DNA of 64,000 nt from Patescibacteria group bacterium (GTDB lineage: Bacteria > Patescibacteriota > Gracilibacteria > Absconditabacterales > Absconditicoccaceae), in contig JAKJDW010000005.1 in assembly GCA_022705745.1 (NCBI GenBank), positions 1-64,000 of the forward strand, given 5' to 3'. Position numbers and translations under genes: made by a program. Below, piece by piece: positions 28,707-48,853 of this stretch (its first letter is position 1; each line of letters starts with the position of its first letter). The notes below the pieces were generated by a model. That model did no database searches and was not told where the DNA came from. It saw only the letters and a program-made list of their open reading frames with translations.

Positions 28707-29783
28707 ATGTCCGAATTCAAAAACCCGCTTTCTCGATCAATTTCTAAATCTACTGTTCTACATTTTTGTAAAAAAAAATATTACTTTTCTACTTATTCAA
28801 ACTATTTGAATGAAGTAGATAAATGACTATGGACCCAAGCATTATTAGCAAAAAATTTGAAAAGCGTAGATATGCGATTTGGAGAAAAAATGCACGACCT
28901 TATATCTGATTATTTGAATTTAGTGAAAACTTGAGATGATAATTTAGATAAAATAAAGAAAACAAAAGAAGATTTAATTAATCAAATGGATCAAGAGTAT
29001 AGTGTTTCCAAAAATAGAGATTATTTAAAATACGATCCAAATGTAAAATTTGGTCTAACAGAGCATTATTACGGCTACAATATTGATAATATTTATCAAA
29101 ACTGAAAAACAAAATTACTGGAAGATTTTGATAAATTTATAAAAAGCGAAATCAATAAAGAAGTGAAAGAATACTTTGAAGACAAATCCAATATTCTCTT
29201 TATTGAGGCTAAAGAAAAAGATTTTGAATCTATGAAAATTCAAATAGAAAACATACCAGAATTAATGTGAATAAATGTTTATGCACAACCAGATTTTTGA
29301 ATTATTACAACTAACAAAGATTATATAATATATGATCGAAAATATTGAAAAGTTCCAAATAAAGATAAAAGCCTAGTATCAAATCAACTAAAAATTTACG
29401 CATACAAAATATTACAAAAAATTGGAATAGAAAATGTAGATAATTTTAACATCAAAGGGTTTGAAGTTTATCTAAAAAATCTAGAAAAATTTGGTTGAAA
29501 AATAACTAAACAAGATTTGGAAGATATAGAAAAAACAATCATATCAGATACTACAATACAAAAACAGTTTTTAATAAATCAAGATGTAGAAAAAAATCAG
29601 CCACTACCAAGCGAAAACTTTCCTAGAACCAATGATTTACAAAAATGTAGTAATTGTACTTTCTACAAAGTATGTGAAGAACTAAAAAAATTCGAAAAAA
29701 CACATAAAATAGAAGAAATTAATAATATAGACGATTCTGTAAATAATGATAATGAGTATAATGAAGATGACTTCCCTTTCTAA
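28707..29783 (+). CDS. PD-(D/E)XK nuclease, Cas4/RecB-like, with likely Fe-S cluster
   Basis: 358 residues, ATG 28707 to TAA. The N-terminus SISKSTVLHFCKKKYYF matches the opening helix of RecB/Cas4-type nucleases. The active-site region has D196 in QPDFGI and D210-W211-K212 (read with CGA as Trp), matching the family's DWKTG motif. Cys21 together with C314-x2-C317-x5-C323 forms the four-Cys pattern that binds an Fe-S cluster in Cas4 and AddB. Likely a DNA end-processing nuclease. No cas genes or repeat array are present, so a CRISPR role is not supported; a repair role is more likely. Confidence 0.75.
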
Positions 29784-29819
29784 AAAGTTTCTTCAAAAAC
29801 AAAAATACCAACAATGGTA

Positions 29820-30078
29820 TTTAATTTCGCAGAATTGCGGGAGAACCCGGGACCACTCCCGCTATAACAGCGGAATTGCTCTACCGACAACCCTTATCAC
29901 AATTAACAATAAAAAGGCTTATATTTTCAAATCTTATTGATCTCAATTTAGCCGTCCCGCAGAATTGCGGGAGAACCCGAGACCACTCCCGCTATAACAG
30001 CGGGATTGCTCTACCTACAACACTATCATAATTAACAATAAAAAAATTTATATTTTTCAAATCTTATTAATTTTAATT
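29820..30078 (-). repeat. Two altered tRNA-Lys copies with palindromes in the anticodon and T arms
   Basis: Two ~130-bp units (from ~29820 and ~29950), each with a tRNA-Lys-like core on the minus strand: D-loop/stem gtcggtagagcaa (or gtaggtagagcaa), variable/T-stem gtggtc[ct]cgggttc. The anticodon arm is replaced by TCCCGCTGTTATAGCGGGA (29857-29875, 29987-30005) and the T arm is interrupted by TCCCGCAATTCTGCGGGA (29955-29972; degenerate at 29825-29842). Spacers between units (ttaacaataaaaa...) are homologous. The units cannot fold as normal tRNAs and have no tRNA 3' end. Confidence 0.8.
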
Positions 30079-30151
30079 TAGGCCAGCCGGGATTCGAACC
30101 CGGGACCACCGCCTTAAAAGGGCGTTGCTCTACCGACTGAGCTACTAGCCT
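30079..30151 (-). tRNA. tRNA-Lys (UUU)
   Basis: 73 nt on the minus strand. Acceptor aggctag/ctggcct, D arm gctc...gagc, anticodon loop cttttaa (anticodon TTT), T arm ccgggttcgaatcccgg, discriminator A, no encoded CCA. The top pair of the anticodon stem is an A-G mismatch. It is flanked on both sides by altered copies of itself. Confidence 0.88.
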
Positions 30152-30390
30152 ATGTTTCTTTCAATTCACTCAGTGACAGGACCACTCCCGCTATAACAGC
30201 GGGATTGCTCTACCGACTGAGCTACTAGCCTATGTTTCTTTCAATTCACTCAGTGACAGGACCACTCCCGCTATAACAGCGGGATTGCTCTACCGACTGA
30301 GCTACTAGCCTATGTTTCTTTCAATTCACTCAGTGACAGGACCACTCCCGCTATAACAGCGGGATTGCTCTACCGACTGAGCTACTAGCC
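30151..30390 (-). repeat. Three exact 80-bp tandem copies of the tRNA-Lys 5' half with a palindrome replacing the anticodon arm
   Basis: Units at 30151-30230, 30231-30310 and 30311-30390 look identical. Read on the minus strand, each starts like tRNA-Lys (ggctagtagctcagtcgg, then tagagcaa), then has TCCCGCTGTTATAGCGGGA where the anticodon arm should be (30186-30204, 30266-30284, 30346-30364), then gtggtcc and an unrelated 27-nt tail with the small palindrome tcactgagtga. No T arm or 3' acceptor strand is present. Confidence 0.85.
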
Positions 30391-30431
30391 TATTTCTCCT
30401 CACAAAAACGAAGATCACCATAAAGATTGAT

Positions 30432-30620
30432 TTAAATAAATCAACGCATTTTTTTATACAATTTCGAATCAACTTTAACCCTTATTTTAGTCCCATCATC
30501 TAAAACTACCCATTTATATATTAAATTTGGTTTAAATGTTCTTTTTGACGCTATCATAGAATGAGATCTTTTATTTCAAGATTTAGTTCATTTACCTGTA
30601 AAATCACATATTCTTGCCAT
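30432..30620 (-). CDS. rpmB: Ribosomal protein bL28
   Basis: 62 residues, ATG 30620 to TAA. Family pattern: CDFTGKG...GN...SHSMIASKRTF, PNL and a terminal DGTKIRVKV segment. Component of the 50S subunit. The usual second zinc-type CxxC pair is absent. It is the last gene of a minus-strand ribosomal group (uS12, uS7, two unknowns, bL19, bL25, bL28) and ends 41 bp from the palindrome-bearing tRNA repeats. Confidence 0.88.
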
Positions 30621-48156: not shown

Positions 48157-48355
48157 AACTTTCTTATTTCTAGGAGGATTAATTTTATCTTGAAATTAAA
48201 TCTTATTTTTTTATAAGGTCGTCCAGTTGATGTTTTTGGGTCAAGAGAAATTTATAAAACAAATGAGGCTTTCTCTCGACCTAAAATCACAAAAATACAC
48301 CAAATTCCTATGCTGAGATAATTCAGAAGCTTGTCCCACAGAGCATAGCGAAGTA

Positions 48356-48400
48356 CAGGAGTAGAGACAGTCCTGATAAATCGGGATGTGTCGGTCACAG
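48356..48400 (+). pseudogene. tRNA-Phe fragment with anticodon arm replaced by a palindrome
   Basis: gtagagacag (48361-48370) matches the tRNA-Phe D-stem region ggtagagcag. It is followed by TCCTGATAAATCGGGA (48371-48386) instead of the anticodon arm, then tgtgtcggt (48387-48395), identical to the tRNA-Phe variable/T-stem start. The match ends at 48395. The intact tRNA-Phe starts 28 bp further on. Confidence 0.6.
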
Positions 48401-48427
48401 TAAAATTGAAGTAAAGTATCCTTACAT

Positions 48428-48561: not shown

Positions 48562-48638
48562 GGGCATATAGCTCAGTTGGTTAGAGCGCATCTCTGATAA
48601 GGATGAGGTCGGTGGTTCAAGTCCACCTATGCCCACCA
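48562..48638 (+). tRNA. tRNA-Ile (GAU) with encoded CCA
   Basis: 74 nt plus CCA (48636-48638). Acceptor gggcata/tatgccc, D arm gctc...gagc, anticodon stem catct/ggatg with loop ctgataa (anticodon GAT), T arm ggtggttcaagtccacc. Followed directly by two altered copies. Confidence 0.92.
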
Positions 48639-48853
48639 TTGTGACAAATTATCGTTAACTTAATTACTTAGAGCGTCCCGATTTATCGGGAAGGTCGGTG
48701 GTTCAAGTCCACCTATGCCCACCATTGTGACAAATTATCGTTAATTTAATCACTTAGAGCGTCCCGATTTATCGGGAAGGTCGGAGGGTTCAAGTCTGTC
48801 TGCCGACAAAGGCGCGGACCTGTCCACCAATAATATCCATGTATGCCCACCAA
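48639..48853 (+). repeat. Two altered tRNA-Ile copies with palindrome in the anticodon arm
   Basis: Copy 1 (48639-48724) and copy 2 (48725-48853) share the leader ttgtgacaaattatcgttaa and keep ttagagcg, the variable loop, T arm and tatgcccacca of tRNA-Ile. In both, TCCCGATTTATCGGGA (48676-48691, 48762-48777) replaces the 17-nt anticodon arm. Copy 2 is further interrupted in the T arm by a second insert (about 48796-48840) that includes tgtctgccgacaaaggcgcg. The D-arm 5' strand and the acceptor 5' strand are missing. Confidence 0.85.

Follow-up and report, generated by a model that had tools for sequence, protein, structure and literature searches.

What leads an intact tRNA gene to be surrounded by partial copies of itself, in which a GC-rich palindrome occupies the place of a stem-loop? 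The question is raised by a tRNA-Lys(TTT) gene in a 64,000-nucleotide stretch of a Patescibacteria group bacterium (GenBank assembly GCA_022705745.1, contig JAKJDW010000005.1), hereafter the window; the genome from which it comes is called the host genome. A preliminary description of the window, made from its sequence, proposed that palindromes enter or are exchanged with tRNA stem-loops and that tandem amplification follows. Here we examine the array itself, its counterparts in the host genome and elsewhere, and the genes that accompany it.

Structure of the tRNA-Lys array

ARAGORN, TRF and a reading of the sense strand confirm that five altered partial copies surround one intact tRNA-Lys, the whole extending over window positions 29826-30393 (Table 1). 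The three exact tandem units of 80 bp that were said to keep the 5' half of the tRNA are recovered by TRF as an array at 30125-30393 with 100% matches and 3.4 copies, the extra 0.4 copy being a piece of the intact tRNA-Lys. On the other side, a 130-bp array at 29828-30081 comprises 2.0 copies at 89%. Read on the sense strand, the three upstream copies run from the 5' acceptor through the D arm to GAGCAA[TCCCGCTGTTATAGCGGGA]GTGGTCC, after which the tRNA sequence ends. The two downstream units begin near the end of the D arm and read GGTAGAGCAA[pal]GTGGTC..GGGTTC[TCCCGCAATTCTGCGGGA]CGGCT, where pal is the same anticodon-arm palindrome as upstream and the second palindrome lies in the T loop. The preliminary description placed the palindrome precisely at the anticodon arm, and the swap turned out to be more exact than claimed. 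It spans positions 28-42 and retains the mismatched A27 and G43. Both of the units credited with a second palindrome in the T arm were also seen, but the outermost is decayed (TTCCGCTGTTATAGCGGGA) and its T-loop palindrome is cut short.

Table 1. Features of the tRNA-Lys and tRNA-Ile loci, in window coordinates.
Feature	Position	Strand	Remarks
Terminator-like hairpin AAATACCATTGTTGGTATTTTTG, 3' of the last 3' copy	29799-29824	minus	Read by eye; likewise in G001
Downstream (3') altered tRNA-Lys copy 2, decayed	29826-29886	minus	Imperfect palindrome ~29857-29875; truncated T-loop palindrome ~29828-29842
Downstream (3') altered tRNA-Lys copy 1	29946-30015	minus	Anticodon-arm palindrome 29987-30005; T-loop palindrome 29955-29972
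Intact tRNA-Lys(TTT), copy inside the putative element	30078-30152	minus	ARAGORN; Rfam tRNA 70.5 bits
Upstream (5') altered tRNA-Lys copy 1	30179-30232	minus	Palindrome 30186-30204 replaces positions 28-42
Upstream (5') altered tRNA-Lys copy 2	30259-30312	minus	Palindrome 30266-30284
Upstream (5') altered tRNA-Lys copy 3	30339-30392	minus	Palindrome 30346-30364
Gene read as ribosomal protein L28 (rpmB)	30440-30620, ends approximate	minus	CDFTG motif; upstream of tRNA-Lys
Intact tRNA-Ile(GAT)	48562-48638	plus	ARAGORN
Downstream altered tRNA-Ile copy 1	48664-48724	plus	Palindrome 48676-48691 replaces positions 27-43
Downstream altered tRNA-Ile copy 2, diverged 3' end	48750-48810	plus	Palindrome 48762-48777

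When window positions 29600-30600 were compared with Rfam 15, no family beyond the intact tRNA reached its gathering score, and the altered copies matched none. A CRISPR-repeat reading of positions 29791-29827 was set aside: the matches are weak and fall on the terminator-like hairpin that follows the last copy.

A second case within the window, at 48562-48810, had been overlooked. There, TCCCGATTTATCGGGA substitutes exactly for the anticodon arm in both copies downstream of an intact tRNA-Ile. Close by, a degenerate unit at 48343-48410, before tRNA-Phe, resembles an altered tRNA-His copy (GTCCCACAGAGCATAGCGAAGTACAGGA..GTAGAG..TCCTGATAAATCGGGA).

Palindromes and altered copies across the host genome

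All seven TCCCG...CGGGA palindromes of the window (0.01 expected in shuffles) lie inside altered tRNA copies, five of tRNA-Lys and two of tRNA-Ile. The host genome (G000; 1.056 Mb in 66 contigs, 94% complete) contains 55 such palindromes, compared with 0 for the reversed control pattern; by our reading, 28 of these fall inside altered partial tRNA copies and 27 outside. A spread of palindromes at random with respect to tRNA, which would have spoken against the preliminary description, is thus not what we find, about half of the 55 being in altered tRNA copies. At least 11 of the 37 host tRNA genes have given rise to such copies, namely Lys, Ile, Val, Ala, Tyr, Arg, His, Met, Gly and two Leu, the Val, Arg, His and one of the Leu copies having been recognised by eye; tRNA-Trp is a probable further source. 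The Tyr and Trp copies carry a CCCCG...CGGGG palindrome instead. A BLAST comparison of the 37 tRNAs with genome stretches returned partial copies of seven at E<=0.001; this comparison involves no palindrome selection in itself, but the stretches had mostly been chosen around palindromes or tRNAs.

Several host loci depart from the pattern of the window. Two contig ends (L015 and L016, on C11 and C14) consist of tandem units of ~100 bp containing the 3' part of tRNA-Gly with its T arm replaced by TCCCGACAAGTCGGGA; both arrays terminate their contigs and may join. In six stretches (L006, L009, L013, L022, L023 and L024), intergenic hairpins are nested within other hairpins and bear a TCCCG palindrome in or close to their tip, with several similar copies, for example CTCCCTTT..GGAGTCCTC[TCCCGACACATCGGGA]TCTCACTTTGTTCGAGATCTATCGGGACAAAGGGAG. 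In tRNA-Val and tRNA-Ala copies (L014, 927-1195, and L021, 1412-1491), a palindrome sits in the D arm, and the bases after it can pair with the flanking tRNA sequence (ATTAG..CTAAT, CTTTAG..CTAAAG), which gives the impression of a stem lengthened by copying.

Distribution among other genomes

The structure is restricted neither to this array nor to the Absconditabacteria/Gracilibacteria, the groups that the preliminary description had in view: it recurs in several other phyla, isolates included. Among 353 genomes of the class Gracilibacteria, TAGAGC followed by a palindrome gave 61 matches in 34 genomes, a few of them chance or native arms, against 10 for the reversed control. With a stricter pattern, whose loop is shorter than a genuine anticodon arm would allow, bacterial and archaeal species genomes (genome_contigs sample) gave 123 matches in 94 stretches, where ~6 would be expected by chance if base frequencies were equal; a few (in Streptomyces, Methylomonas and others) resemble GC-rich chance hits. 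Of the 123, 89 lie within 400 bp of an intact tRNA, as do 15% of random positions in the same stretches. Altered-copy loci range from Gracilibacteria to Bacteroidota, Acidobacteriota and Armatimonadota, and the isolates that carry them include Chryseobacterium gilvum, Kaistella palustris, Neolewinella agarilytica, Solitalea longa, Algoriphagus pacificus, Altibacter and Sediminibacterium salmoneum. Two kinds of copy occur: those upstream retain the 5' end and are interrupted either past the variable loop or within the T arm, and those downstream retain the 3' end and lack the 5' end. An altered copy, a tRNA-Lys and a GIY-YIG gene were also seen on an IMG/VR contig of 42.5 kb (L174, viral_contigs sample), whose GIY-YIG protein falls near an Ignavibacteria relative on the tree described below; this contig is possibly host DNA.

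Empty and occupied loci

Related genomes in which the same tRNA gene stands alone allow the altered copies to be placed relative to the original gene. In genus g14, tRNA-Lys(CTT) is a single tRNA in four species and has altered copies in three. At the occupied locus of G014, the terminator hairpin of the empty sites is found after the 3' copy and their upstream region before the 5' copy. The two altered copies thus stand where the original gene had its ends. By this comparison, the intact tRNA of the occupied Lys(CTT) locus is within the insert.

The locus of the window can be followed in the same manner, as rpmB is the conserved neighbour of its tRNA-Lys among relatives. Eleven genomes have the rpmB-tRNA-Lys(TTT) arrangement in common. 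Three are empty (G018, G023 and G064, the contig of the last ending just past the tRNA) and eight are occupied by altered copies (the host genome, G001, G007, G014, G031, G059, G060 and G061); five of the latter (G001, G014, G059, G060 and G061) also carry a GIY-YIG gene. G001 belongs to the same genus as the window, and its orthologous locus reads 5' copy, tRNA-Lys, GIY-YIG gene, 3' copy, with an AAATACC..GGGTATTTTT terminator after the 3' copy like that of the window. Given this arrangement at the same locus, the window is read most simply as a nuclease-less derivative.

Compared with empty relatives, an occupied locus is shown, at the level of sequence, to hold the original upstream region joined to a 5' part of the tRNA and the original terminator joined to a 3' part. 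The interval between these parts comprises an intact tRNA and often a GIY-YIG gene, and in both parts a GC-rich palindrome substitutes exactly for the anticodon hairpin, in line with its base pairing. In the intact copy, the anticodon arm is the same as in the empty relatives, and both flanking halves are without the native arm. A recoded rescue tRNA, as in a cleave-and-rescue system acting by sequence, is therefore unsupported. As the intact copy is not recoded, a nuclease that cuts the anticodon arm should also cut the rescue copy; this is a real difficulty, and awkward for simple homing.

Association with GIY-YIG endonuclease genes

The small gene often found between the copies and the intact tRNA encodes a GIY-YIG endonuclease of ~80-100 residues. 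Its products match Pfam PF01541 with E-values down to 3.5e-15, and the residues Y, Y, G, R, H, E and K of the GIY-YIG domain are 92-100% conserved among 50 proteins. The commonest order is (5' copy)n, intact tRNA, GIY-YIG, 3' copy, and an alternative position for the nuclease gene is between the 5' copy and the intact tRNA. In the host genome, such a gene lies between the intact tRNA-Ala and a tRNA-Ala 3' copy. A GIY-YIG gene or a recognisable remnant was looked for at the tRNA-Lys locus of the window and not found, and none was recognised in the C11 and C14 stretches that hold the tRNA-Gly arrays.

Three counts describe how closely the two features go together. In the genome_contigs sample, 28 of 29 GIY-YIG genes are within 400 bp of an altered copy, in zones that make up 11.6% of the DNA; conversely, a GIY-YIG gene is nearby in 27 of 94 altered-copy loci, some of which are cut by contig ends. 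Pooled over the host genome, G014, G016, G353 and G354, 13 of 20 small GIY-YIG genes have a tRNA no more than ~400 bp away, and such neighbourhoods amount to ~3% or less of each genome; all five genomes were selected for altered copies, so that this fraction is no general rate. Among 30 Lys(TTT) loci, 10 have altered copies, and GIY-YIG genes are present at 7 of these; none of the remaining 20 has one (hypergeometric ~6e-5, related genomes not being independent).

To these counts we add a tree of 49 GIY-YIG domains, based on 75 columns, a short alignment that leaves many forks open. Outside Gracilibacteria, tRNA identity changes seven times on this tree, and the lowest value among 5000 shuffles was nine; some of the identity labels were assigned by hand from adjacent copies, for instance in Chryseobacterium by joining two contiguous stretches. 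As far as the tree resolves them, nuclease lineages outside Gracilibacteria follow tRNA identity, and a Val group unites proteins of Armatimonadota and Acidobacteriota. Within Gracilibacteria, the same shuffles gave no significant isotype signal (seven changes against a null mean of 7.9).

Boundaries of the swap

The ends of the replaced segment follow base pairing. Among 28 cases in the class Gracilibacteria, the swap is symmetric about the helix in 27, covering either 27-43 (0/0) or 28-42 (+1/-1) and never a mixture; the right flank was unselected, a good flank match beside the palindrome was demanded, and the rows partly repeat loci. The sole exception is a tRNA-Ala copy of the host genome, where the Val and Ala swaps are off register, with offsets of -4/-5 and -11. 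Counted as 22 combinations of locus and isotype, the 27-43 pair is replaced where it is C-G or T-A (n=13) and kept where it is A.G, G.A or G.T (n=7) or A-T (n=2), the T-A cases being ambiguous because the palindrome itself has T at its start and A at its end. The T-arm swap of tRNA-Gly, examined by hand, agrees with this boundary rule: positions 50-64 are replaced and the G49.U65 pair is kept. In most anticodon-arm cases, no halves of the arm are retained.

Since the boundary tracks the helix and has no fixed position, a step that recognises an extruded hairpin (cruciform) is favoured. A fixed cut position accounts less well for the pattern than recognition of a hairpin, whether in DNA or by way of selection acting on RNA. 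The rule is a concrete and testable claim about recognition of hairpins in DNA or selection on RNA structure.

Interpretation and alternative explanations

From these comparisons, we think that the array probably derives, with loss of the nuclease gene, from an element family that resides within tRNA genes and whose members often carry the gene for a small, single-domain GIY-YIG endonuclease. The nuclease would cut a tRNA gene not yet invaded, at its anticodon arm or close by, and the element would be installed when that gene recombines with an occupied copy. The swapped hairpins would take the anticodon arm away from both tRNA halves, and the spare intact tRNA of the element would keep the cell alive. 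Unequal recombination between copies could then produce tandem units and could delete the nuclease gene, as may have happened in the window. The least certain part is the hairpin exchange, which we suppose to proceed through the step recognising an extruded hairpin. This account preserves two elements of the preliminary description, in that both the exchange of palindromes for stem-loops and the subsequent tandem amplification are supported, but the palindromes do not act alone. As sole agents they do not fit the relatives and other phyla, where an intact tRNA, often accompanied by a small GIY-YIG gene, lies between the copies. If the reading is right, tRNA genes, which are essential and hard to disrupt without harm, would harbour a natural disrupt-and-rescue element, and puzzling tRNA-like repeats and tRNA pseudogenes in many genomes could be accounted for. 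More tentatively, and with considerable doubt, we can imagine a whole new class of mobile elements that moves among genes for tRNA and other structured RNAs through an exchange of hairpins directed by structure: the GIY-YIG nuclease would act on extruded hairpins, terminal palindromes would replace the host hairpin exactly, starting at its outermost stable base pair, and the carried tRNA would rescue.

The palindromes might instead be autonomous, REP-like elements that enter any stem-loop, with tRNA duplicates as tolerant landing sites and GIY-YIG genes as unrelated later passengers. In keeping with this, the 27 host palindromes outside altered copies include some in nested intergenic hairpins and one in 23S rRNA, the majority of altered-copy loci have no GIY-YIG gene, and the C11 and C14 arrays have none recognised in their stretches. 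We nevertheless regard it as unlikely, as GIY-YIG genes are tightly linked to altered copies, G001 carries the nuclease at the locus orthologous to that of the window, and arm halves are not retained in most anticodon-arm cases. A RAYT/Y1 transposase was also rejected as the driver: no PF01797 match was found in the host genome, an absence made uncertain by its 94% completeness. A decoy or antitoxin role, in which transcribed tandem tRNA mimics soak up a tRNA-cutting nuclease (the GIY-YIG enzyme or an anticodon-arm defence enzyme), has a parallel in type III toxin-antitoxin systems, where a repeat RNA neutralises a ribonuclease. It would suit structured units that are exactly tandem-repeated, a nuclease gene that adjoins them elsewhere, and nuclease lineages that track tRNA identity outside Gracilibacteria. 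What makes it decidedly improbable is that the two truncated copy types correspond to opposite ends of the original gene, whose upstream region and terminator lie beyond them; moreover, many loci have copies without a nuclease, others have just one 3' copy, and most characterised GIY-YIG enzymes act on DNA.

There is very little chance, in our estimation, that the copies are scars left by phages or integrative elements whose tyrosine recombinase targets the anticodon or T arm of a tRNA. Such integration is known to produce partial tRNA copies next to an intact tRNA (PMC9897764), but integration fragments keep their native arms, whereas here the arm is swapped for a symmetric palindrome and 5' and 3' parts are both present. 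Often the interval spans just tens to hundreds of bases and holds no gene beyond, in some cases, that for a GIY-YIG enzyme; it is mostly too short for an integrase. An assembly artefact of the metagenome bin could be suspected from the 66 contigs of the host genome and from the two Gly arrays at contig ends; it is extremely unlikely given that the same architecture occurs in orthologous loci of independent genomes and in the isolates Chryseobacterium gilvum, Neolewinella agarilytica DSM 24740, Altibacter sp., Algoriphagus pacificus and Solitalea longa.

Relation to known systems

Neither palindrome-swapped tRNA halves nor bacterial chromosomal GIY-YIG genes between tRNA halves were described in the literature covered by our search, which lacked most subscription papers and so gives a weak negative. 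The components have precedents. REP elements are, like the elements here, short dispersed palindromes, and they are associated with a Y1 transposase. GTAG or CGTC tags are present in most REPs (PMC3733652). In the present case no Y1 transposase was found, and the link is to tRNA arms and GIY-YIG genes. Organelle genomes contain hairpin elements as well, among them the double-hairpin elements of Allomyces and the palindromes beside tRNA genes of Neurospora. Repetitive hairpin-forming elements are described from sponges (PMC2800124). These organelle and sponge elements share with ours GC-rich hairpins, some of them near tRNA genes; ours differ in being bacterial, in the precise exchange of tRNA arms and in the link to a nuclease gene. 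In atp6 of Allomyces, a homing endonuclease gene brings a duplicated gene end that restores the invaded gene. There too an essential gene is disrupted and the invader supplies a working replacement, whereas here it is a tRNA gene that is invaded, the replacement is a complete gene, and the ends are marked by hairpins.

Kinship with known GIY-YIG selfish elements is likely. The nearest tested precedent is SegB of T-even phages, a free-standing GIY-YIG homing endonuclease that cuts in tRNA genes and drives tandem amplification of tRNA segments (PMC13096335). As here, a GIY-YIG nuclease gene adjoins tRNA genes; in contrast, SegB is phage-borne and is linked to many tRNA isotypes without preference, and the available text reports no palindrome-swapped tRNA halves (PMC13096335). 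The same paper states that free-standing GIY-YIG enzymes typically cleave the donor allele poorly (PMC13096335). One paper on other grounds (Dunin-Horkawicz 2006; PMC1564403) uses the word tRNA three times, and the one main-text passage available concerns a tRNA methyltransferase fusion. CPR bacteria carry GIY-YIG-encoding insertion sequences in rRNA genes, mostly at the tops or bases of stem-loops (PMC11270868). These resemble the present elements in placing a GIY-YIG gene inside essential structured-RNA genes, and differ in needing no rescue copy; tRNA and palindromes are unmentioned in that study (PMC11270868).

GIY-YIG genes in other structured RNAs

The host genome has a GIY-YIG gene of this kind within a 23S rRNA gene (L008 ~1880-2190, on C6), as an insert of ~300 nt at about LSU model position 583, in helix 25 by our own placement. 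In G014, a GIY-YIG gene lies in the loop of a hairpin of RNase P RNA (class A; L199 1344-2004), where the match to RF00010 scores 85 bits, under the gathering score of 100. Together with a palindrome in 23S rRNA, these inserts suggest a wider taste for stem-loops of structured RNAs, and the swap rule ties the tRNA loci to the inserts in 23S rRNA and RNase P RNA. The palindrome, TCCCGATTTGTCGGGA, is situated within a 23S rRNA helix of the host at about LSU model position 1525 (L008 3105-3120; C6:13004).
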